NCBI RefSeq assembly: GCF_013394305.1
Contig: NZ_AP019810.1
Location: forward strand, 372,001 to 436,000
Direction: 5' to 3'
From: Enterococcus mundtii
Lineage (GTDB): Bacteria > Bacillota > Bacilli > Lactobacillales > Enterococcaceae
DNA: 64,000 nucleotides
Under the pieces are notes generated by a model that searched no databases, was not told the origin of the DNA, and saw only the letters and a list, made by a program, of their open reading frames with translations. The number at the start of each line of letters is the position of its first letter. Position 1 is the stretch's first letter. A program made the position numbers and the translations under genes. Positions 45,762-56,803 of the stretch are shown here, in pieces.

Positions 45762-46358
45762 ATGAACGTTGCAGTATCACGTAAATTAATGAATATTATA
45801 TCGATCATCGGTATTGGTTTTTCAATTGCACTCACGATTTATTTTATTAATCTAGGCGTCTTTAAAGATTTGAACGCATTAAGAGGTCTTGTAGGTGATT
45901 CAATTATTTTAGGACCGATAATCTTTATCTTGATCCAAATACTGCAAGTCGTTATACCGATCATTCCTGGAGGGATCAGCACCGCAGCAGGTGTCCTGAT
46001 TTTTGGTCCTTACGCTGGCTTTATCTATAATTATGTTGGTATTTGTATCGGTTCGATCATTATTTTCCTATTAGGTAGAAAATATGGAAAACCATTTATC
46101 CTGTCGATGATTAGTGATAAAACATATGACAAATATATTGGTTGGTTAGAAAACCAAAGTCGTTTTGAAAAGCTTTTCGCGCTAGCGATCTTCTTACCAG
46201 TAGCACCAGACGATGCCTTGTGTTTAATGGCTGGCTTGACAAATATCTCAGTCAAAAAATACACGTTGATTATTTTGATTGCTAAACCCTTATCGATCTT
46301 TTTGTACAGCATGGCATTGATTTATGGTGGTAACTTCCTGACTGGCTTGTTAGGATGA
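45762..46358 (+). CDS. VTT-domain (TVP38/TMEM64, DedA-like) membrane protein
   Basis: 198 residues, about five membrane segments plus re-entrant parts. SNARE-associated/VTT signatures: QVVIPIIPGGISTAAGVLIFGPYAGFIYN, FLLGRKYGKPF, and FLPVAPDDALCLMAGLTNISVKKY. The family includes lipid scramblases and flippases for undecaprenyl phosphate. Ribosome site GAAGGAG. Confidence 0.88.
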   Translation: MNVAVSRKLMNIISIIGIGFSIALTIYFINLGVFKDLNALRGLVGDSIILGPIIFILIQILQVVIPIIPGGISTAAGVLIFGPYAGFIYNYVGICIGSIIIFLLGRKYGKPFILSMISDKTYDKYIGWLENQSRFEKLFALAIFLPVAPDDALCLMAGLTNISVKKYTLIILIAKPLSIFLYSMALIYGGNFLTGLLG

Positions 46359-46378
46359 TTTCTTAATAGATACACTGT

Positions 46379-46418
46379 GAGTACTGCAATGAAAGATTCC
46401 TGCAGTACTCCTTTTTTA
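46379..46418 (+). terminator. Terminator of the VTT gene
   Basis: GAGTACTGCA and TGCAGTACTC pair perfectly around 12 bases, followed by CTTTTTTATC. A TATAAT at 46431 directly after may be the -10 of the next gene. Confidence 0.88.
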
Positions 46419-46456
46419 TCTTTTTTGCGCTATAATGTTAGGAGTAGGTGATAATA

Positions 46457-48259
46457 ATGATCGTTTATTTAAAACGAAGTTTAGGAAATGCTTGGGACTT
46501 CCTGAAAGGAACACAAGCTTATTTTCGTGATGTAGTTCTGATGCATGGGTTTATTTTGTTTATTTGTTTGCCTTTGCTTGGTAGTATGACACGCTTGATT
46601 TTACAACGTGGGTCGATCGATTATCTTTCAACGGATAATATCCCCACACTGATTTCGCAACATCCAGGAGTTTTCTTCTCCTTGATCGCTGTCTTATTGT
46701 TGATTTTGCTCTTAGTCTATTTTGAGTTTACTTTTTTGCTAATGAGTGTTTATTTCATCAAAAAACAAGAACCAATTTCATTAAAGCAATTATTGCAGTT
46801 GACCATCCGACAAATAAAAAAAGTTCGTCCGATGATTTTTTTATTTTTCTTAGCTTACTTTTTTTTGATTTTACCGATCAGTGGATTAAGTTTTAATTCG
46901 GACTTACTTTCTAAAATAAAAATTCCTGCATTTATTATGGATTTTATTTTCACTAACCGCTGGATCATCGTAAGTTCTTTTCTACTTGTCTATGTCTTCC
47001 TCGGTTATATCGGGATTCGTTTAATCTTTGCATTACCTGAAATGATTTTAAGAGATCGCCCTTTTCGTGAAGCGATCCGTGAGAGTTGGCGTTTAACCAA
47101 AGCACGTTTTTTTGCGATTTCAGGTCAATTTTTAGTGATCAGTGGTACGATTTTATTGATTTCAACAATCAGTTACTTGGCGATCTTGTCAGGTCAGATC
47201 TTTGTTGAGGAATATTTCTCCGATTACTCATTGATTAGTGCTGTTTTTGCCATGACACTCTTACAAGGCGTTCTTTTGTTCAATATTGTGATGTCTACCG
47301 TCGGAATTTTTTACGTCATTGTAGACTTTATGGATGATGAAGGTTTCTTACCAGATATTCCCAGCTGGTTCTCTTCACAAGAAGTGCCCAAAAAACACAC
47401 AGCTTTAAAAAATACTGCGTTTACTTTGTTTGCTGTTTTCTTCGGTGTCGGTGTTTGTATTTACAATATGAATTACCTGACATCTGCTTCTGAAACAAAA
47501 CCTCTAACGATTTCCCATCGTGGCGTTAGCTTAGGAAACAGCGCACAAAATACGATTGCTGCACTAGAAAAGACGAGCAAAGATTATCATCCAGATTATG
47601 TAGAAATGGACATCCAAGAAACCAAAGATGGTCAATTCGTGGTCATGCATGATTTCAATTTAAGAAATTTGACTGGGGTCAATAAAGCACCGCAAGACCT
47701 AACTTTAGCAGAACTGGAAAAATTGACTGTGACTGAAAATGGTGCCAAAGAGCCATTGGTTTCATTCGATACGTATTTAAACCGAGCAAATGAACTGAAC
47801 CAAAAATTATTGATCGAAATCAAAACGACTCGAAAAGACTCGGATGATTTAGTTAAAAATTTTGTTAAAAAATACGAAGAAACTATTTTAACACATGGAC
47901 ATATTTTACAAAGTTTGACTTACCAAACAGTGTCAGATTTAAAAGCGGAAAACCCTAATTTTTACGTTGGCTACATTTTGCCTTTTAATCTAGTTGGCCC
48001 TCCAGTAACACCTGCCGACTTCTTGACCATGGAGTACAGTACGATCAATCGTAATTTCATTGATTCTGCTCATCAGGATGGCAAAAAAGTCTATGTATGG
48101 ACACCCAATGAGTCAGACGATATGAGCCGGATGATGTTTTATGGTGTAGATGGTATCATCACAGATGATATGCAAGCGTTGAATGATACGATCAAAGATT
48201 CTGAAGGAGAAATTACTTACTCTGACAAGCTATTAAACTTTGTTCTTGGTGTTGGTTAA
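46457..48259 (+). CDS. Membrane glycerophosphodiester phosphodiesterase
   Basis: 600 residues from the ATG 6 bases after AGGTG. About eight membrane segments (GDPD_2-type membrane domain) occupy residues 1-340; then the GDPD catalytic domain: ISHRGVSLGNSAQNTIAAL with H354, YVEMDIQETKDGQFVVMHD with the acidic pair and second His. The catalytic part faces outside and could hydrolyse glycerophosphodiesters or lipoteichoic acid. Alone in its unit with a clear terminator. Confidence 0.9.
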   Translation: MIVYLKRSLGNAWDFLKGTQAYFRDVVLMHGFILFICLPLLGSMTRLILQRGSIDYLSTDNIPTLISQHPGVFFSLIAVLLLILLLVYFEFTFLLMSVYFIKKQEPISLKQLLQLTIRQIKKVRPMIFLFFLAYFFLILPISGLSFNSDLLSKIKIPAFIMDFIFTNRWIIVSSFLLVYVFLGYIGIRLIFALPEMILRDRPFREAIRESWRLTKARFFAISGQFLVISGTILLISTISYLAILSGQIFVEEYFSDYSLISAVFAMTLLQGVLLFNIVMSTVGIFYVIVDFMDDEGFLPDIPSWFSSQEVPKKHTALKNTAFTLFAVFFGVGVCIYNMNYLTSASETKPLTISHRGVSLGNSAQNTIAALEKTSKDYHPDYVEMDIQETKDGQFVVMHDFNLRNLTGVNKAPQDLTLAELEKLTVTENGAKEPLVSFDTYLNRANELNQKLLIEIKTTRKDSDDLVKNFVKKYEETILTHGHILQSLTYQTVSDLKAENPNFYVGYILPFNLVGPPVTPADFLTMEYSTINRNFIDSAHQDGKKVYVWTPNESDDMSRMMFYGVDGIITDDMQALNDTIKDSEGEITYSDKLLNFVLGVG

Positions 48260-48263
48260 TATA

Positions 48264-48314
48264 AAAACGTGTTGCTCACTATCCCACCGGATAAGTAAGC
48301 AACACGTTTTTTTT
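48264..48314. terminator. Terminator of the GDPD gene
   Basis: AAAAACGTGTTGCT pairs with AGCAACACGTTTTT around 22 bases, followed by T runs; it may also serve the small gene on the other strand. Confidence 0.88.
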
Positions 48315-48317
48315 AGT

Positions 48318-48428
48318 TTATTTTTGCTTTGATTCCTTAATAGCTCGAACGACTGCTAAAACAGCAGGGATAGCAGATATAACTGCTAGAAAAATGCTTA
48401 GTTTACCAGAATTTTTTCTTTTTTGCAT
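48318..48428 (-). CDS. Small membrane protein, unknown
   Basis: 36 residues from the ATG after GGGGGCG. A basic N-terminus (MQKRKNSGK), one membrane helix (LSIFLAVISAIPAVLAVV) and a basic end RAIKESKQK. A longer in-frame start lacks a ribosome site. Could be a regulatory micro-protein or a type I toxin-like peptide; no family recognised. Confidence 0.55.
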   Translation of the reverse strand: MQKRKNSGKLSIFLAVISAIPAVLAVVRAIKESKQK

Positions 48429-48647
48429 AGCGATTCGCCCCCTTTCTTTTATTATAATGAAGTTTGCGAAATATCTCAAAGCAAGTGTTTGCTCGACGCT
48501 TTCAACTTTCACTATTTTGATGCCTGTTTTGCTATTATTTCAGTCATTTCAACCCAAAATATGACAATTTTGTTTGAACATTATCCCCCACTGTTCGTGA
48601 GTCCAAACCAAAAAAGAGATACATTAATCTTAAAGAGGTGAATAAAG

Positions 48648-48719
48648 ATGGTCTACATTCAAACTGGTATATTTATTTTATTAATGATTGGATTATTGAT
48701 GGGAATCTCAGAGAATTAA
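48648..48719 (+). CDS. Micro-ORF for a 23-residue hydrophobic peptide
   Basis: Good site GAGGTG, 7 bases before ATG; the peptide begins MVYIQTGIFILLMIGLLMG. One membrane helix fills almost the whole peptide. Coding is uncertain at this length, but ribosome site and helix together make it plausible. Confidence 0.4.
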   Translation: MVYIQTGIFILLMIGLLMGISEN

Positions 48720-48857
48720 TTTCAAGTAAACTAGCAACAGCTATCTTATAGCACATTGATTGCCCAAATATTAGAATGGTGCTAAACTTAAGGTGTATTC
48801 GGAAGTTTTATGAAAAATTTCATGAATACACAAATACCGATGAAAGGAGAAATATCT

Positions 48858-49007
48858 ATGACATTCACAAAAACAAGCATCAGCTATCGTGTAGCATTTG
48901 ATAGCTCAACGAATCGCTTCATGGCAATCGATGCAATGAACGAACAACACATCGCTTATGGGATCACCATTGAGCAAGCAGTAAAAGCGCTACACGAATC
49001 TAACTAA
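48858..49007 (+). CDS. Small soluble protein, unknown
   Basis: 49 residues from the ATG after AAAGGAG. MTFTKTSISYRVAFDSS, RFMAIDAMNEQHIAYG, and a C-terminal helix IEQAVKALHESN. No family recognised. Followed by a terminator, which supports a real unit. Confidence 0.65.
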   Translation: MTFTKTSISYRVAFDSSTNRFMAIDAMNEQHIAYGITIEQAVKALHESN

Positions 49008-49051
49008 GGAGTGTTCCCTTTTCATGTCAGCTGATAATTCTATAGAGAATT

Positions 49052-49095
49052 AAAAGACGTTTTTGGCTAAACGAGCCATAGAAACGTCTTTTTTG
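49052..49095. terminator. Terminator between the small gene and the holin gene
   Basis: AAAAGACGTTT pairs with AAACGTCTTTTTT; inner helix TGGCT/AGCCA. The T run is best on plus, usable on minus. Confidence 0.85.
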
Positions 49096-49149
49096 TTTGC
49101 TCCAAATAAGAAGAATATCCTAGCAGCACTTTTAAGAAAATCCTATCGA

Positions 49150-49539
49150 TCATTTTTTGTACTTCCCCTGCTCCTCTGAGAAATCACGCCATTTTTTCAA
49201 ACGTACTTTAACAAAATCAGGTACAGGTATTCCTAGTTTCCTTAGATTTTCAATAACGGACAAACCATAGATCGCACAATACGAAAAAACCAAAGCAATA
49301 CCAATTGCTTCAAAACCTGTAATTTTGAGATAGGGATAAGCAATCAAAACAATAAGTAAAATCAACAAATATTTGATTACATCTTTTACCACAGAACGTT
49401 TGAATCGTTTCTTTTTTCCTGTTTGCAGACAGATACCACTAATAAAATCAAGACACAGAATCAATACAAAAATTTGAATGTACACATTACTTACAAGATT
49501 TCTAAACTCATTCAATACCACATCATTCTCTACAATCAT
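49150..49539 (-). CDS. Orphan phage-type holin
   Basis: 129 residues from the ATG 9 bases after GGAGG (a GTG three codons earlier touches the ribosome site). Three or four membrane segments: YIQIFVLILCLDFISGICLQTG (family-type LDFxSG), then YLLILLIVLIAYPYL, and FEAIGIALVFSYCAIYGLSVIENL. This fits the Phage_holin_4 (TcdE/Cph1-type) family. No endolysin or other phage structural gene is near. Divergent from the XRE repressor gene across three related operators. Confidence 0.75.
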   Translation of the reverse strand: MIVENDVVLNEFRNLVSNVYIQIFVLILCLDFISGICLQTGKKKRFKRSVVKDVIKYLLILLIVLIAYPYLKITGFEAIGIALVFSYCAIYGLSVIENLRKLGIPVPDFVKVRLKKWRDFSEEQGKYKK

Positions 49540-49649
49540 TTTGCTCACCCTCCACTTTCTGGAATACCTAACCTTTGTTTGATCTTACCTATTCCGACAG
49601 ACTACTTCAATTTGATTACAATTCAATGTTCATCATCTTTGACACAAAA

Positions 49650-49691
49650 TAACTTTTAAGCTATTATAAAGTCAATAGAAATCATAAGAAT
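49650..49691 (-). promoter_or_regulatory. Holin promoter with operator O1
   Basis: Minus strand TTCTTA, 16 bases, TATAAT (49663-49668). Operator O1, TAACTTTTAAGCTA, at 49650-49663 overlaps the downstream edge of the -10. The 16-base block CTTTTAAGCTATTATA (49653-49668) is repeated exactly, inverted, at 49782-49797. Confidence 0.6.
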
Positions 49692-49721
49692 ACGCTTTAT
49701 CTTAAGCATGCTCTATTGAAA

Positions 49722-49735
49722 GAACTTTTAAGTAA
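49722..49735. promoter_or_regulatory. Middle operator O2
   Basis: GAACTTTTAAGTAA, sharing ACTTTTAAG with O1 and with the complement of O3 at the core CTTTTAAG. It lies about 70 bases from O1 and 65 from O3. Confidence 0.5.
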
Positions 49736-49759
49736 CTGTATTCTTAACTTTTCGAACAA

Positions 49760-49800
49760 TTGAATCAGTGTATAAGCAAACTATAATAGCTTAAAAGCTA
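49760..49800 (+). promoter_or_regulatory. XRE-ImmA promoter with operator O3
   Basis: TTGAAT (49760-49765), 16 bases, TATAAT (49782-49787), then O3 TAGCTTAAAAGCTA (49787-49800), a 6-base-arm palindrome touching the -10. The arrangement mirrors the holin promoter. Confidence 0.7.
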
Positions 49801-49855
49801 ATTGTCAACCTTAATGACTTTTATGCTATTTAAATATCAAGAAAGGTGGTTCCTT

Positions 49856-50218
49856 ATGACACTAGTTGCGCGAATCAAACAATTAGCAGAAGAAAAAAAA
49901 GTAACCTTTGCTGAAGTCGAACGTGCCGTAGGAATCTCTAATGGCCAGATCCGAAGATGGGATCGTGTTTCACCCAAGTCGGAAAATTTAAAAAAAGTAG
50001 CGGATTATTTTGGGGTAACAACTGATTTCTTATTGGGCAGCAACCAAGCGCCAAAATGGGCAAATAAAGATGATTTATTTGAGTTAGACAAAATGCTCAA
50101 TTCAAATGTCAATATGGCGTATGGTGGAGAAACATTGACAGAACAAGAAAAGCAACGTGTGAAAGATGTATTGACGGGGCTTTTCTGGGAATTTCGAAAA
50201 CGTGGCAAAGAGAAGTGA
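49856..50218 (+). CDS. XRE-family repressor (ImmR/cI-like)
   Basis: 120 residues from the ATG after GGTGG. N-terminal helix-turn-helix: LVARIKQLAEEKKVTFAEVERAVGISNGQIRRWDRV, and YFGVTTDFLLGS at its end, as in phage-type XRE repressors. The C-terminal half is acidic and helical. The metallopeptidase gene follows 6 bases after its stop, the ImmR-ImmA order. Expected to bind O1-O3 and to be removed by ImmA-type cleavage. Confidence 0.9.
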   Translation: MTLVARIKQLAEEKKVTFAEVERAVGISNGQIRRWDRVSPKSENLKKVADYFGVTTDFLLGSNQAPKWANKDDLFELDKMLNSNVNMAYGGETLTEQEKQRVKDVLTGLFWEFRKRGKEK

Positions 50219-50224
50219 GCATAT

Positions 50225-50653
50225 ATGGAGATGGATATTATCAAACTAGTAAGCGAACTGAAGCGTACCTATGATACCGCCAATCCTTTTGTGATTGCTG
50301 AAAAATTAGGAATAGAAATCAGATATGTCTCTTTTCTCGATAATCCAAAAGGACAGTTTCAAGAACTATTAGGCTCCCCTATTATTTTATTGAACAACTC
50401 ACTGAAAGAATCAGAAGAACGTTTTTACATTTGTGCCCATGAACTTGGACACGCTTTGTTCCATCGAGAAATATCTAGTTACTATGTATCCTCTAGAAAT
50501 TCAAGAAGCAAGTCTGAAAGCGAAGCTAACTGCTTTGCTTCGAACTTGATCGTTTCCTTGTACAAAGAAGATACGGAAACCTACCCAAGAGAAGTGGAAG
50601 AACTGACAAGACTTTATGGTCTTCCAGAGAGTTGTTATCGGTTTTTGATTTAA
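50225..50653 (+). CDS. ImmA/IrrE-family metallopeptidase
   Basis: 142 residues. Zinc motif HELGH at residues 72-76 (ICAHELGHALFH) and third ligand E100 in ESEANCFASNLI, the COG2856 pattern. Cleaves the partner XRE repressor in ICEBs1 and prophage systems. Ribosome site is weak; expression is probably coupled to the repressor gene. Confidence 0.92.
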   Translation: MEMDIIKLVSELKRTYDTANPFVIAEKLGIEIRYVSFLDNPKGQFQELLGSPIILLNNSLKESEERFYICAHELGHALFHREISSYYVSSRNSRSKSESEANCFASNLIVSLYKEDTETYPREVEELTRLYGLPESCYRFLI

Positions 50654-50676
50654 TGAGTGTACTATTATGTTTATTT

Positions 50677-50698
50677 AGGACTTAGTGGGGTAAGTCCT
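50677..50698 (+). other. Stem-loop between ImmA and the nuclease gene
   Basis: AGGACTTA and TAAGTCCT pair perfectly around 6 bases. No T run follows, so read-through into the nuclease gene is possible. It could be a processing site or attenuator. Confidence 0.45.
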
Positions 50699-50769
50699 CG
50701 ATAATATAGATTTGGCGACTACTACTACCTGCCGTTAAATGGGAGTAAGAAACTATCAGGAGGGCTATT

Positions 50770-51834
50770 ATGGAATTGGAAAAGTTTCAAGATAATTTAA
50801 AACAGTTAGGTAAAAGAGTTATTGAGCTAAAAGATAGTATTGGTACAGAGGAGGCAACCAAAACATCTTTGATCATGCCGTTCTTTGCAACTTTGGGCTA
50901 TGACTTATTTAACCCCACAGAGTTTGTACCAGAATTTACAGCAGATGTTGGCATAAAAAAGGGAGAAAAAGTTGACTATGCTATTGTCTTAGATGGAAAA
51001 CCCACTATATTAATCGAAGCAAAGTCAATCAATCAACAGCTAACGAAACATGATTCTCAATTGTTCAGATATTTTGGAACAACAACATCTAAGTTTGGAA
51101 TATTAACAAATGGCGAAGAATATAAATTTTTTACTGATTTAGACGAGCCTAATAAGATGGATTTGACACCTTTTTTAACTATAAATATCACAAAAATTAA
51201 AGATAACCAGATTCCTGAATTAGCAAAATTTCATAAAGATAATTTTGACGTTGATAAAATCACAAGCTCTGCGGCAGAATTAAAGTATCTCAGTTCATTA
51301 AAATCTTATCTTACTTCTGAATTAAATGAGCCTTCCGATAACTTCGTTAAGTATCTATTAGGCGAAATTTATGAGGGGATGAAAACAAAACAGACAATAG
51401 AAAAATTTAAACCTATCATAAAAAAAGGAATGAATCAATTTATTGCTGAAAAAGTAAATGACAAATTAAGTGCAGCATTGAAAACATCAGTTATTACAGA
51501 TGAAAATGAAGCTAAATCTCAATCAGACACAACAGATGAAAGTGACAGTGAAGTTATTACTACTCCAGAAGAGCTAGAAGCTTATACCATTTGCAAAGTT
51601 GTCTTAAAAGATACCATTCCATTAAACCGACTATTTTATAGAGATAATAGAAGCTATTTTAATATCCTATTAGACGACAATATTAGAAAATGGATTTTAC
51701 GTGTTCGTTTTAATTCATCTGGTATGAAAATCGAATTGAACGATGATAATAAGACGATTTATGAGCTATCCGAACCAATGGATATCTATAACCTATCCAA
51801 AGAAATGATTAACGTGGTAAATAAATTTTTATAA
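50770..51834 (+). CDS. Solitary HsdR N-terminal-type nuclease domain protein
   Basis: 354 residues. Residues about 30-130 carry the type I restriction HsdR_N pattern: SLIMPFFATLGYDLFNPTEFVPEF, then PD-(D/E)XK residues D69 in KVDYAIV, E83 and K85 in LIEAKS, and YFGTTTSKFGILTNG. Motor and methylase parts are absent. The C-terminal 90 residues (TICKVVLKDTIPLNRLFYRDNRSYFN) form a second domain often seen with such proteins. Likely a defence or DNA-processing nuclease. Ribosome site GGAGGG. Confidence 0.85.
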   Translation: MELEKFQDNLKQLGKRVIELKDSIGTEEATKTSLIMPFFATLGYDLFNPTEFVPEFTADVGIKKGEKVDYAIVLDGKPTILIEAKSINQQLTKHDSQLFRYFGTTTSKFGILTNGEEYKFFTDLDEPNKMDLTPFLTINITKIKDNQIPELAKFHKDNFDVDKITSSAAELKYLSSLKSYLTSELNEPSDNFVKYLLGEIYEGMKTKQTIEKFKPIIKKGMNQFIAEKVNDKLSAALKTSVITDENEAKSQSDTTDESDSEVITTPEELEAYTICKVVLKDTIPLNRLFYRDNRSYFNILLDDNIRKWILRVRFNSSGMKIELNDDNKTIYELSEPMDIYNLSKEMINVVNKFL

Positions 51835-51906
51835 CCGCTAAAAAGAAAGCGCTATTATTTATAACACCTTCTCATTATGAGTTTGTTGTCTATTCAAATA
51901 AAAAAG

Positions 51907-51957
51907 AAAAAAGTTATCTGTAAAAATATTATTTGTATTTTTTACAGATAACTTTTT
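51907..51957. terminator. Terminator of the nuclease gene
   Basis: AAAAAGTTATCTGTAAAAA pairs with its complement (19 bp) around 12 bases; T runs on both strands. The rest of 51958-52346 (about 390 bases) is AT-rich and shows no gene or hairpin I can support. Confidence 0.9.
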
Positions 51958-52347
51958 ATTTTCAAATAATCTTTTCTACTTACACTGTTCACTCGGTTTT
52001 AGGAGAAGAAAGAATATTTAGAGTTAGCTTTGTCTCCAGCTTACCTTATATATATTTTATTGACTAGCGTTATCTAACATACGCATCAATAGTACAGATC
52101 ACTTGCTGACATTATTTTACCAACACATTGATGCGGCGTAACTGCCGTTGTTTTGGTGTATCTTCATTCCGTTGATGCTTTCTGTTCTAGTTTTAAAAAT
52201 CTTACAATACATTTTCCTTTTTATGTACATACTGTTTTAAATTTTAAATCTCAATAAGCCTAAGTATACCCTTTTACATGATTTAGTATATATCATAAAT
52301 TAGCTTTATTTAACTCTCTTTCCAAATCTTATTATTTGATAAAAAGA

Positions 52348-52376
52348 CAAAAAAACCATCTCACAAGGAGATGGTT
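52348..52376 (-). terminator. Terminator of cspA copy 1
   Basis: AACCATCTC pairs with GAGATGGTT around 5 bases, followed on the minus strand by TTTTTT. Confidence 0.88.
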
Positions 52377-52393
52377 CAAAGTCGTCTATTGAA

Positions 52394-52591
52394 TTATTTA
52401 TTGATATTTACTGCTTGTGGTCCACGTTGACCATCTTCAATATCATAAGTAACTGCTTGACCTTCATCTAAAGTCTTAAAGCCTTCACCTTGGATGGCTG
52501 AAAAATGTGCAAACACATCTTGTCCATCTTCACCAGTGATAAATCCAAAACCTTTGTCTGAGTTAAACCATTTTACTGTACCGTTATTCAT
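52394..52591 (-). CDS. cspA: Cold-shock protein, copy 1
   Basis: 65 residues of the CspA family: [16 protein letters not shown] (RNP1 GFGFIT) and DVFAHFSAI (RNP2). Single-stranded RNA/DNA chaperone. Protein identical to that of copy 2 at 54035. Preceded by AGGAGG and a leader of about 75 bases. Confidence 0.95.
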
Positions 52592-52669
52592 ATATATTTC
52601 CTCCTATTACGTAAATCATACGTGTTTTGTTGCAATTAACATTACTTGGTAAAAGGAGTTTTTATAGTG

Positions 52670-52697
52670 TGAATATATCGCTCAGATTACGTTTCAA
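52670..52697 (-). promoter_or_regulatory. cspA copy 1 promoter
   Basis: Minus strand TTGAAA, 16 bases, TATTCA; identical in copy 2 (54311-54338). The leader contains AAACTCCTTTTACC, which could pair with the AGGAGG ribosome site; whether that matters for cold control is speculation. Confidence 0.5.
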
Positions 52698-52804
52698 ATT
52701 AGATTACTTATTTAATATACCATGTATTACCTAAGAATACAAATATTTACGCTTATTCTTTTGATTTATCATTCTAGTAGTATAAGTTTGTACCATTAAT
52801 ATTT

Positions 52805-53197
52805 TTATTTTGTCAATTTGTACTCAATACCATGGATCGTAATATTTTTGATAGTATCAGGCCATCCCTTGGTCTGCCATTTCTCTTCATTTGCTTGTTT
52901 TTCGATTTGATCAGCACCTTGGTTATAAAACTTCACTTGGTTTTTATTATACCAAGGATCTTTATGTGGATTTGGACTTAATTGGTAGCGATATTTCCCT
53001 GGGTTGATTTCATACCCTCTGTTCGTACCACCAAATGACGCTTCTCTCCATTTATACTGTTTTCCTTCTATTCTCATGGTACAGCCTAGAAGATAAGTGC
53101 CACCTTGCTCCTTTGCTGCCGCATCTCTACTATTCCAAAACATACTCCCACTTAATAAAACTGTTATACCTAAAATAATCACTAAAATTCTCTTCAT
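52805..53197 (-). CDS. Secreted protein, unknown
   Basis: 130 residues. Signal peptide 1 to about 28 (RILVIILGITVLLSGSMFW...AAAKEQ), then a mature domain with conserved-looking aromatic residues: YLLGCTMRIEGKQYKWREA, INPGKYRYQLSPNPHKDPWY, EEKWQTKGWPDTIKNI. Single Cys in the mature part. No family recognised. Lies between the two cspA copies. Ribosome site GGAG. Confidence 0.78.
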   Translation of the reverse strand: MKRILVIILGITVLLSGSMFWNSRDAAAKEQGGTYLLGCTMRIEGKQYKWREASFGGTNRGYEINPGKYRYQLSPNPHKDPWYNKNQVKFYNQGADQIEKQANEEKWQTKGWPDTIKNITIHGIEYKLTK

Positions 53198-53402
53198 GAA
53201 AAAATTCTCCTATCAGTATTTTTGAATTCGCTTAATCTTACAAATAATCTGTGAAAAACATATTGAATTTCCCTTGACTTTTACTAAGAATGAGCTTATG
53301 AAAACATCAAACCAATGTTCAATAAATACGAACAAATATGTCTGCATACTTGTTTTACTTATTCAAATAACTGATTAATCGCTTAGTATGAGCCGCTCCT
53401 AT

Positions 53403-53861
53403 TCATTCGGATTTTTCATTCATCAAATTTTTTTTTAATACCCGCATCAATCGTCCAAACCGATCATTTTCCTTAGTTATTTCCCGATATCCCCATTTTT
53501 CATATAACCCTTCATGTTGAGTTGTTATATATACACTGCCGAAACCAATTTCCTTTAGTTTATTTTCACCTGTTGTAACTACTTTTTGGCTGATATGCTT
53601 CCCTCGATATTCTGGCGCGACAAAAACAGTGGCAATGTTAGGCGTGTAGTCCTTCGTATCAATAATGTCTTTTTTTACAAGAGTACAAAATCCTACAACA
53701 TGATTTCCATCTTTTGCAATAATCACGGATTCCCAATCTGTAAATTCTTGTTTTTCCATTTTTTCTGCTATATACTTTGCTGCTTTCCATTCAAATTGAC
53801 GGATAGAATTAGCTACTGAAAGCCAATCAGAATGTTCTTGGGTTGTAATGACATATTCCAT
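53403..53861 (-). CDS. GNAT-family acetyltransferase
   Basis: 152 residues. GNAT motif A region: IATVFVAPEYRGKHISQKVVTTGENKLKEIG with the CoA loop PEYRGKHISQ; ITTQHEGLYEKWGYREI follows. Substrate unknown; could act on an antibiotic, a small metabolite or a protein N-terminus. Alone between the cspA copies. Confidence 0.88.
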   Translation of the reverse strand: MEYVITTQEHSDWLSVANSIRQFEWKAAKYIAEKMEKQEFTDWESVIIAKDGNHVVGFCTLVKKDIIDTKDYTPNIATVFVAPEYRGKHISQKVVTTGENKLKEIGFGSVYITTQHEGLYEKWGYREITKENDRFGRLMRVLKKNLMNEKSE

Positions 53862-53987
53862 ATACTTTTCCTCTTTTCTAATTACTTTAAAAGCATTTGA
53901 TTCTTGCGATCTCTACCTACTGATTATTAAATAATAGTTTACTTGATTTTTCAAATGTTTCCAAAATTTTCATATCTATTCCAAATA

Positions 53988-54386
53988 ACAAAAAAACCAT
54001 CTCACAAGGAGATGGTTCAAAGTCGTCTATTGAATTATTTATTGATATTTACTGCTTGTGGTCCACGTTGACCATCTTCAATATCATAAGTAACTGCTTG
54101 ACCTTCATCTAAAGTCTTAAAGCCTTCACCTTGGATGGCTGAAAAATGTGCAAATACATCTTGTCCATCTTCACCAGTGATAAATCCAAAACCTTTGTCT
54201 GAGTTAAACCATTTTACTGTACCGTTATTCATATATATTTCCTCCTATTACGTAAATCATACGTGTTTTATTGCAATTAACATTACTTGGTAAAAGGAGT
54301 TTTTATAGTGTGAATATATCGCTCAGATTACGTTTCAAATTAGATTACTTGTTTAATATAGCACGTATCAGCTAAGAACACAAATA
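53988..54386 (-). repeat. cspA duplication unit, copy 2
   Basis: See copy 1 at 52347-52745. Includes its own terminator (53989-54017) and promoter (54311-54338). Confidence 0.92.
54035..54232 (-). CDS. cspA: Cold-shock protein, copy 2
   Basis: 65 residues, identical to copy 1; the genes differ by at least one silent base (AAC versus AAT region near 54154). All nucleic-acid-binding motifs are kept. Same ribosome site and leader. Confidence 0.95.
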
Positions 54387-54536
54387 ATAACTCTCGCAAA
54401 ACATCATTAGAGTTTATGATACCTATCTCTAGTCAAAACAAGTTTAATGTAAGTAATTATTATTATCACGCTAATTTGGATGCGTTATCTTTTTACAATA
54501 TATATATATAAAGTGTACGATAAATAAATAATATAT

Positions 54537-55045
54537 ATGGGAGAAATTATAATAAAAAAAATTGTTTTTATTGGTATGGTAACTAGTCTTCTTTTACTCG
54601 CTGCTTGTGAGACAACTACCTCAAAAAATACAGAGTCAGATAACCAATCTATAAGTTCAACGAGTAATATCGAACTAAATTCAATAAATGAAAAGAGTTC
54701 GTTTCAAGAAAATTCATCAATATTTCAACCTTCACAAATTCAAGAAGCTATAAATTCTACTCAATCATCTGAGGTAACAACGGAATCAACGGCTGCTTCT
54801 TCGCCCCTTGTAGGTAATGCAATAACCTCTCAGGAACGAGCAATGCAAGTACTTATCAGTGATTCTCCTGAATTACAAAATGAGGATATCGTGGTTACTT
54901 TCTATAAATAATTGAATCAGACTATCTATTCAATACACAAAGTAAATCAATACTTGAACAAGGAGGATCAGGATCGGTAGGTTTTTATCGAGTTTCTAAG
55001 GAAGGAACGATCACAATAACTGATGCATACGGAAACGCAGTTTAA
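54537..55045 (+). pseudogene. Decayed lipoprotein gene
   Basis: The first frame encodes 124 residues: a lipoprotein signal with LLLLAAC, then a Ser/Thr/Asn-rich linker, ending in VTFYK at a TAA (54909-54911). In the +2 frame right after it, coding continues as ESDYLFNTQSKSILEQGGSG and YRVSKEGTITITDAYGNAV to a TAA at 55043-55045, so one indel near 54908 has cut the C-terminal domain off. The expected start, 8 bases after GGGAG, reads ATA before AAAAAAATTG; the only ATG precedes the ribosome site. Probably a broken enterococcal surface lipoprotein. Confidence 0.72.
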
Positions 55046-55391
55046 TTTTTTAACAAAAAAATTTAGTAGGCTTTATTTGTCAATAAACCTTGATCAAACT
55101 ATACTACCTCCATAAATATATTTCTCACTCCAATTATACTTAGTTACAAAGAAGTATCTATCCCCCAGATATATGGTCACCTCTCTCTCCTTGTCAAAGA
55201 ACGTGCTGTAAGTAAATCAGATGATTTTTTAAACAATCAAGATAAAAAGCATCTGGTCAACTGGTCCAATTTACATCAAAAAAAAGACAGCCAATAATCG
55301 GCTGTCTTTTCTGCATGTAGTACCATTAAAATAAAATGGCACCTACATGTTTAGTCGTTTTCATTACTAAGAATCTTCTCTAACCCCCATC
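55046..55391. other. Intergenic stretch before pgi
   Basis: About 350 AT-rich bases. Only the pgi terminator (55277-55310) is seen. No reading frame with a ribosome site, no repeat recognised. Confidence 0.5.
55277..55310 (-). terminator. Terminator of pgi
   Basis: AAAAGACAGCC pairs with GGCTGTCTTTT around 7 bases; on the minus strand a T run of eight follows. Confidence 0.88.
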
Positions 55392-56738
55392 TTACAGGCG
55401 TTCGTTCAATTCTTTCGCAAGGTCTTCAAACCCTGGTTTGCCTAGTAAAGCAAACATGTTTTTCTTGTAAGCTTCTACTCCTGGTTGGTCGAATGGGTTG
55501 ATGCCATTCAAGTAACCTGAAATGCCGACAGCAATTTCAAAGAAGTACATTGTGTAACCTAATGTGTAAGCATCCATTGTAGGGATTTTAACTAATAGGT
55601 TTGGTACATCGCCGTCTGTATGAGCTAATAATGTACCTTCAAAAGCTTTTGTATTTACAAAGTCAATTTCTTTTCCTTGTAAATAACCAAGTCCGTCCAA
55701 GTCTTCTGCTTGTTCAGGAATTGTAATTGATTTACGTGGTTTTTCAACTTTTACGATTGTTTCGAAGATATTGCGACGTCCTTCTTGGATGTATTGTCCA
55801 AGTGAGTGCAAGTCTGTTGAGAAGTTTGCACTTGAAGGGTAGATTCCTTTTTGGTCTTTACCTTCTGATTCGCCGAATAATTGTTTCCACCACTCAGAGA
55901 AGTATTGCATTCCTGGTTCGTAGTTGATCAACAATTCAGTAACTTTGCCTTTACGGTAAAGAATATTACGCATTGCTGCATATTGGTAAGCTTCGTTTTC
56001 TTCAAGTTTGTCGCTTGAATAAGCTTTGCTTGCATCGGCAGCACCTTGCATCAAGGCATCGATATCTGCTCCGCTTGCGGCGATCGGTAGCAAACCAACT
56101 GCTGTCAATACAGAGAAACGTCCACCGACGTCATCAGGAATCACAAATGTTTCCCATCCTTCTACGTCTGCTTCTACTTTAACAGCCCCTTTTGCTTTGT
56201 CTGTTGTAGCGTAGATGCGTTTGTTTGCTTCTTCTTGACCATATTTTTTAACAAGTAATTCTTTGAATACACGGAATGCAATGGCTGGCTCAGTCGTTGT
56301 TCCTGATTTTGAAATGACATTTACTGAGAAGTCACGGTCGCCGATCACTTCGATCAAGTCAGCAAGATAAGTTGAGCTGATTGAGTTTCCAGCGAAGAAA
56401 ATTTGTGGTGTTTGGCGTTTGTCGCTTCCCAACAAGTTGTAGAAGGTATGTTGTAAGAAATCGATTGCTGCACGAGCACCTAAATAAGAACCACCGATAC
56501 CGATGACCACAAGGACTTCAGAATCAGATTGGATTTTCTTAGCAGCAGCTTTGATACGAGCAAATTCTTCTTTGTCGTAGTTCGTAGGTAGGTCGATCCA
56601 TCCTCGGAAATCGCTACCTGCGCCAGTTCCTTCTCGTAATAATTTGTCTGCAGCAGTAACTTGACTCTGCATATAGCCTAACTCATGTTCATTGACAAAT
56701 GGTGCAACTTTTGAATAGTCAAAATGAATGTGTGCCAT
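55392..56738 (-). CDS. pgi: Glucose-6-phosphate isomerase
   Basis: 448 residues, the short Gram-positive form. Interconverts glucose-6-P and fructose-6-P. Family stretches: [58 protein letters not shown], and [16 protein letters not shown]. Ribosome site AAGGAGG. Confidence 0.97.
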
Positions 56739-56774
56739 TTTTGTTCCTCCTTAAAAGTTTCAATCTACAGATAT

Positions 56775-56803
56775 ACTTTACGTTTTTTTTTATTATTTTT
56801 CAA
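56775..56803 (-). promoter_or_regulatory. pgi promoter
   Basis: Minus strand TTGAAA, 17 bases, TAAAGT. A hairpin with GCAAATAT arms (56804-56833, inner GAAGCTTC) lies just upstream, after the gdhA stop, without a clear T run. Confidence 0.55.

Follow-up and report, generated by a model that had tools for sequence, protein, structure and literature searches.

A holin gene beside an XRE-ImmA switch at pgi in Enterococcus mundtii and similar units in Enterococcaceae

Most studies of holins treat them as partners in the lysis pair of an intact phage. A holin gene that stands next to a repressor and a protease raises the question of what benefit an inducible, phage-independent pore might bring to a cell, and the locus described here makes that question testable. 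It lies in a 64,000-nucleotide stretch (the window) of the 3.3-Mb genome of Enterococcus mundtii. ORF calls and family matches confirm the arrangement described in an earlier sequence-only reading of this DNA, with a holin gene and an xre-immA pair transcribed divergently (Table 1).

Genes and control region of the unit

The longest open reading frame of the holin gene (49150-49548, minus strand) encodes 132 aa, and profile scores were taken on this frame. It matches PF05105 (2.2e-14; 54 bits versus a curated cutoff of 22.2), TIGR01593 (toxin secretion/phage lysis holin; 5.3e-11, 42.6 bits versus a cutoff of 40.2) and phrog_199 (3.1e-11). The score above the curated cutoff and the several hydrophobic segments (near residues 21-33, 56-72 and 80-90) place the protein in the Phage_holin_4_1 family. 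The repressor matches HTH_3 (7.8e-06), phrog_8 (3.7e-19) and PADLOC capH (6.4e-09), and the peptidase matches PF06114 (1.7e-12), phrog_87 (2.4e-26), PADLOC capP (1.2e-11) and several other PADLOC peptidase models. The pair thus has the composition of an XRE-ImmA switch, i.e., an HTH repressor followed by an M78 (ImmA/IrrE) peptidase with an HExxH motif. In PADLOC, the holin had no match, and XRE and ImmA matched only regulator-type and candidate (PDC) models.

Table 1. Coordinates of the unit, its control region and neighboring features in the window
Feature	Position	Strand	Remarks
Holin gene	49150-49539	-	129 aa from ATG at 49539 (best start)
Rightward promoter, towards xre	49639-49667	+	TTGACA-17-TATTAT; 11 of 12 consensus bases
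Operator 1	49650-49663	+	TAACTTTTAAGCTA; one mismatch to TAGCTTTTAAGCTA
Middle site	49722-49735	+	GAACTTTTAAGTAA; present in the window, G007, G008 and G012, absent from G015
Leftward promoter, towards holin	49780-49808	-	TTGACA-17-TATAGT; 11 of 12 consensus bases
Operator 2	49787-49800	-	TAGCTTTTAAGCTA, read on the minus strand
Third operator-like site	49815-49828	+	TGACTTTTATGCTA; before xre, aligned and kept in 5 of 5 loci
XRE repressor gene	49856-50218	+	120 aa; helix SNGQIRRW
ImmA-type metallopeptidase gene	50225-50653	+	142 aa; HELGH motif
Variable cargo slot, 3' of immA	50770-51834	+	HSDR_N endonuclease-like gene (PF04313, 1.2e-16; phrog_4225, 2.9e-142); slot in other loci: L053:8078-9142, L052:14153-16330, L055:8189-8983, L044:4149-5786
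Integrase C-terminus remnant	55136-55252	+	39 residues; tblastn, 38% identity, E 3e-05
pgi	55392-56738	-	PF00342; 3' end is the attachment site of related elements

The slot downstream of immA differs in content among loci. It contains the HSDR_N gene in the window and in genome G008, an NlpC/P60 protein in G007, a membrane-protein-like frame in G015, other content again in G012 and, in an element at pgi in G005 (L044), a SIR2 protein with a match to the PADLOC candidate PDC-S25. Between immA and the slot (50712-50756), approximately 37 to 45 bases are 84 to 89% identical to the DNA following immA in the pgi elements of G005 and G006 and appear to be a phage segment common to these elements and the window. 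Further downstream, two identical 65-aa cold-shock-like proteins (52394-52591 and 54035-54232) lie within a 407-base repeat, the copies of which are 97% identical and 1.6 kb apart. An Rfam scan of 46000-56800 gave nothing above gathering scores.

The spacer between the divergent genes contains CTTTTAAGCTATTATA at 49653-49668 and, exactly inverted, at 49782-49797, as the sequence-only reading had noted, with no other copy in the window. Among 200 first-order Markov simulations of a spacer of this length, no inverted repeat exceeded 12 bases, compared with 16 in the real sequence, and an inverted-repeat search of the window extended the arms to 22 nt with 91% complementarity. The same reading had placed an operator directly after an outward-facing TATAAT in both directions; this part failed, as the two promoters instead face each other and the operator lies inside the −35/−10 spacer. 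Transcripts from the facing promoters would overlap by approximately 100 bases, as estimated from their positions. A weaker rightward promoter (TTGAAT-16-TATAAT, 49760-49787) is also present, and a promoter scan found eight promoter-like sites in 2 kb; this count is unremarkable, because 6.1 (standard deviation, 2.3) were expected, but the facing pair scored best among the eight.

The operator TAGCTTTTAAGCTA is a near-palindrome that sits across the spacer of both facing promoters. The rightward promoter hexamers are the same in all five loci of the module and in a G015 prophage, the leftward promoter is kept in all five, and operator 1 is a perfect TAGCTTTTAAGCTA in G015. Both promoters and the three sites are retained in G015 although the DNA between the promoters has drifted. 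The site at 49815-49828 is the weaker one, with three mismatches to the operator. The middle site, also proposed as an operator from the sequence alone, fared less well; the four closest loci have it, whereas G015, which is the most distant, lacks it, and it is probably not essential. It is by conservation and co-occurrence that the other sites are placed as putative operators over the promoters that they would control. No LexA-like box was found at 48000-52000.

Prophage origin at pgi and conservation in the genus

The sequence-only reading had seen no endolysin, integrase or structural gene nearby. None of these genes was found near the holin, but a 39-residue C-terminal remnant of an integrase, detected by tblastn with PF00589 integrases as queries, lies beside pgi. 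Similar stubs occur in G008 and G012, whereas none was found in G015, and the stretch from G007 stopped short of pgi. In G004, an integrase tail beside pgi is 98% identical. Searches of 46001-56000 with labelled tail, lysin and integrase proteins gave no other phage remnant; a tail-protein match at 47510-48178 was rejected, being the GDPD domain of a host gene. With an integrase reduced to its tail, no left attachment copy and no structural genes found, the unit does not constitute a complete prophage. It is not an F-type tailocin (no tail tube, tape measure or tail tip gene was found in 46001-56000) or a holin-endolysin cassette (labelled lysins gave no lysin remnant in the same interval).

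Related genomes show what integrates at this site. The last 26 codons of pgi are repeated, at 96% identity, in G005 and G006, on the element's other side 26.5 kb away in the former and on the contig carrying the GDPD gene in the latter, and these repeats mark integration at pgi. A third copy lies approximately 69 kb from pgi in G004, and an integrase is present beside pgi in both G005 and G006 (L044 and L050). The gap between the GDPD gene and pgi is approximately 1.3 kb in G001 and G013, with no labelled phage gene between, compared with 7.1 kb in the window; the interval in G001 and G013 is an empty site. Among 10 further genus loci with the closest xre-immA pairs (L042 to L051), nine have an integrase-family frame within the stretch fetched and L046 has none; eight were scanned at the main frame, in addition to L050 (PF00589). 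To the left of the window unit, neither an attachment copy, a 12-base direct repeat nor the deletion junction was found. Judged from sequence comparison, the unit is what remains of a prophage beside pgi.

The G005 pgi element (L103 and L104; G005:C2:1906000-1937000) contains a weak ArpU-like frame, a receptor-binding-like protein, a small phrog_1129 holin and amidase-like frames. No head genes were recognised by the labels used, and it is another reduced element at pgi.

Five of the 16 genus genomes (that of the window, G007, G008, G012 and G015) have the holin-xre-immA order at one and the same location, flanked by a GDPD membrane-protein gene and pgi; the other 11 lack it. A holin relative occurs in 10 of the 16 genomes, and ImmA and XRE matches occur in all of them. 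The holin is intact in 5 of 5 loci, with 93 to 95% identity to that of the window in G007, G008 and G012 and 63 to 64% in G015. Its dN/dS ranges from 0.11 to 0.25 among the six pairs of the mundtii group; against G015, where synonymous sites are near or past saturation, two pairs could be computed (0.11 and 0.12). Flanking host genes of the mundtii group range from 0 to 0.09, so that the holin, though under purifying selection, is less constrained than these neighbors. In G012, the last residues of XRE (L054:7643-8035) are out of frame and run into the start of immA, which accounts for a higher XRE ratio. With order and place kept and the holin constrained, the unit does not look like plain decay.

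In a holin tree built without the G008 prophage holin, the five window-type holins group together (support, 100/97), and only this grouping is relied on, because long branches were flagged. The nearest relatives of the holin belong to prophages and headless tail clusters. A search of a plasmid collection returned two distant holins only.

The switch in prophages and across Enterococcaceae

The same control region occurs in phage. A prophage-like region approximately 99 kb from the G015 unit shares both promoters and all three operators with it; the position of the holin is taken there by a 61-residue Cro/C1-type protein. Two operator patterns retrieved 33 viral-contig stretches in total (22 and 29, overlapping), and in 29 of these an XRE with the helix SNGQIRRW lies beside the operator. 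One of the 29 (L115) is a unit of the type found in genome group g13; in 27 of the remaining 28, the nearest divergent frame has 60 to 63 residues, and two such frames that were scanned (L042 and L112) are both Cro/C1-type HTH proteins, while L144 is arranged differently. These viral XREs are not independent, as most are 97 to 99% identical to the G015 prophage copy. Prophages with this switch thus appear usually to have it facing a cro-like gene. In L042 (5865-6170), L049 (6811-7110) and L038 (6232-6745), a common stretch that is absent from the window lies between the facing promoters, around AAATAAGA and TTTGSCGACC (seen by eye), and is possibly a structured RNA in the transcript overlap.

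Across 106 Enterococcaceae genomes, the operator pattern matched 42 places in 23 genomes, 40 of them beside an xre of the window kind, and the reversed pattern, used as a control, matched 12 times in 12 genomes. Among 41 xre genes from genome loci, the operator lay upstream of all 23 xre genes with the SNGQIRRW helix and of none of the 18 without it; many of these genes are close relatives, so that the counts are not independent. The window's own genome yielded no further copy of the switch by pattern search.

PF05105 gave 116 matches in 79 of the 106 genomes. Among the ImmA matches listed, at least 27 of the 116 lie within 6 kb of PF06114; at least 26 are divergent and within 2.1 kb of ImmA, and the 27th (G076) is on one strand. 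The compact divergent loci (at least 26) are distributed over 7 of 16 genomes of group g1, 2 of 20 of g3 and 17 of 22 of g13. At least five chromosomal settings are involved. The window group sits at pgi and the G003 locus in a ribosomal L1/L11 region; G011 has its unit next to an HU-type gene, and G022 and G027 have theirs next to glyoxalase-like and monooxygenase genes. In g13, the neighbor is a DRTGG/CBS regulator gene, with genes for isocitrate dehydrogenase and citrate synthase close by. Two of the five settings carry headless tail clusters in sister species, and an endolysin was often not recognised. The sequence-only reading depended on the three genes occurring together in other genomes and on the unit not always being part of a complete prophage, and both were found.

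In the g13 unit, XRE is combined with an ImmA that is longer than in the window (225 aa), with an ArpU-like activator (phrog_248) and with a holin from a different lineage, and the g13 loci inspected have the same operators and face-to-face promoters as the window. In the 10 loci fetched, the DRTGG/CBS regulator is always present and isocitrate dehydrogenase lies within the stretch in nine. In unsaturated pairs of these loci, the holin has a median dN/dS of 0.031, compared with 0.042 for ImmA and 0.063 for XRE. An Amidase_5 endolysin was recognised in two of the 10, adjoining the holin in G078 and 2.7 kb further on in G088; in an eleventh locus (G083), the holin is a different one and its neighbor is Amidase_5-like.

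Headless, tailocin-like tail clusters with the XRE-ImmA switch, an ArpU-like regulator and a holin were observed in g3 (L097 and L098) and in g1 (L040 and L041). At a single g3 site, G021 and G029 (L097 and L098) carry tail genes without a head or packaging cluster and are tailocin-like, with the caveats that one G021 frame matches a scaffold family and that the best family for its tail-tip-like frame is named minor head protein. The same site holds an endolysin and a holin in G027, and a holin and two short endolysin pieces in G022. In g1, a comparable headless tail locus is found in G001 and G013 (L040 and L041), and at the same place G011 has a stripped locus with a holin and an amidase. 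The series from headless tail cluster, through holin with endolysin, to holin with a broken or missing endolysin provides a record of the paring of phage elements, and similar leftovers at several places in related bacteria suggest that cells use them.

Proposed mechanism, rival explanations and known systems

The best explanation, to which we assign a probability of roughly 0.6, is that a prophage at pgi was stripped and its switch kept next to a holin, such that a damage-type signal would act through ImmA to cleave XRE and release the holin. A temperate phage would have integrated at the 3' end of pgi and then lost most of its genes, leaving the lysogeny switch (face-to-face promoters, three operators, XRE repressor and ImmA protease), with the holin now in the position usual for a cro-like gene in prophages with this switch, and the unit would have been retained since. 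By binding TAGCTTTTAAGCTA within the two promoters, XRE would silence the holin gene and hold down its own production. Activation of ImmA, most likely by DNA damage or single-stranded DNA, would lead to cleavage of XRE, opening of both promoters and production of the holin; phage DNA may be an alternative signal. A holin without an endolysin is likely to depolarise the membrane and kill the cell, or to lead to its lysis by autolysins of the host, and either outcome would be expected here. Genome comparison supports the proposed prophage origin, the conserved switch, purifying selection and recurrence in the family; XRE binding, cleavage, the trigger, the pore and a benefit are inferred. Candidate benefits would be protection of kin from phage, release of DNA or protein, and coordination with other elements.

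The sequence-only reading had left a choice between the fossil control region of a prophage and an adopted lysis or abortive-infection module. Both halves have support, because the region is prophage derived and the unit is intact, constrained and has relatives elsewhere. A plain fossil, in which a deletion juxtaposed switch and holin with no benefit to the host, and in which the unit persists solely because loss of the repressor before the holin would be lethal, is nevertheless a rather unlikely account. The clear prophage remnant with its integrase stub, the faster evolution of the holin than of flanking genes and the absence of the unit from most of the genus (11 of 16 genomes) would fit it. 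However, a stop codon could freely remove the holin, yet all five copies are intact across near-saturated synonymous change, and the low median holin dN/dS in g13 and the recurrence of similar units in at least five settings also argue against passive persistence.

Two further accounts give the pore another use. XRE might also repress phages with the same operator, so that an invader that breaks XRE would free the holin and kill its host early. Such a guard against related phages would suit the frequency of the same operator and same-helix XRE in the prophages and viral contigs searched, the presence of both the unit and a same-switch prophage in G015, and the variable slot with defence-like genes nearby, but the pattern search showed no second switch copy in the window's own genome and PADLOC matched only the regulators of the unit, not the holin; as the explanation of this locus, it is decidedly improbable. 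The broader proposal that such tripwires were built from a phage immunity switch repeatedly, in at least five settings, by stripping prophages or tail clusters until the switch and a holin were left, and would fire when a phage breaks XRE through its own ImmA, Cro or antirepressor, is doubtful. Release of proteins without killing has been proposed for TcdE-like holins, and a holin that lets cytoplasmic proteins out in this way would agree with the TIGR01593 match just above its cutoff and with there being no recognised endolysin beside the gene. TIGR01593 also covers ordinary phage holins, however, the closest kin of this holin are in prophages and headless tail clusters, and an exported substrate was not identified, all of which makes a release pore hardly credible.

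The stripped prophage with a retained, signal-responsive holin can be compared with several known systems. All parts of the unit have been described before; what is new is that a holin is the stable output and that this arrangement recurs. The significance of the unit is that a phage-type damage switch retains control of a holin beside which no endolysin was recognised, in a design that recurs in several settings of one family. No description of such a unit was found in the open-access literature searched. In ImmR-ImmA of ICEBs1-type elements, an XRE repressor is likewise followed by ImmA at a divergent promoter region, but the window keeps no integrative element genes except the integrase tail. 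Coliphages P2 and 186, which belong to a different host group, have opposed early promoters with overlapping transcripts, a layout similar to the one predicted here. Holin-endolysin cassettes of Enterococcus and Streptococcus phages contain the same holin family, and the best annotated phage holin matches (H3 to H6) are 39 to 55% identical over 97 to 98% of the protein, whereas the window holin is early, lies next to the repressor and has no recognised endolysin.

CapH-CapP and DdrO-PprI resemble the unit in pairing an HTH repressor with an M78-type peptidase, and the window pair matches capH and capP, but those systems control immune or repair genes and not a holin. Repressor cleavage by CapP and PprI is reported to be activated by single-stranded DNA (PMC13373217, PMC10904395), and the design of the window unit agrees with cleavage by a metallopeptidase. 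From cleavage by these related metallopeptidases, together with the capH and capP matches, it follows that damage or phage DNA would be expected to free the holin. The Listeria monocin, an F-type tailocin, is similar in that a repressor-protease pair stands opposite a phage-derived operon; MpaR is reported to cleave CI-like repressors, more so under SOS, and repressor loss to be lethal (PMC6872733). Headless tail clusters with the same kind of switch occur in G001, G013, G021 and G029. Unlike the monocin, the window unit lacks tail genes and a recognised endolysin, and its output is one holin.
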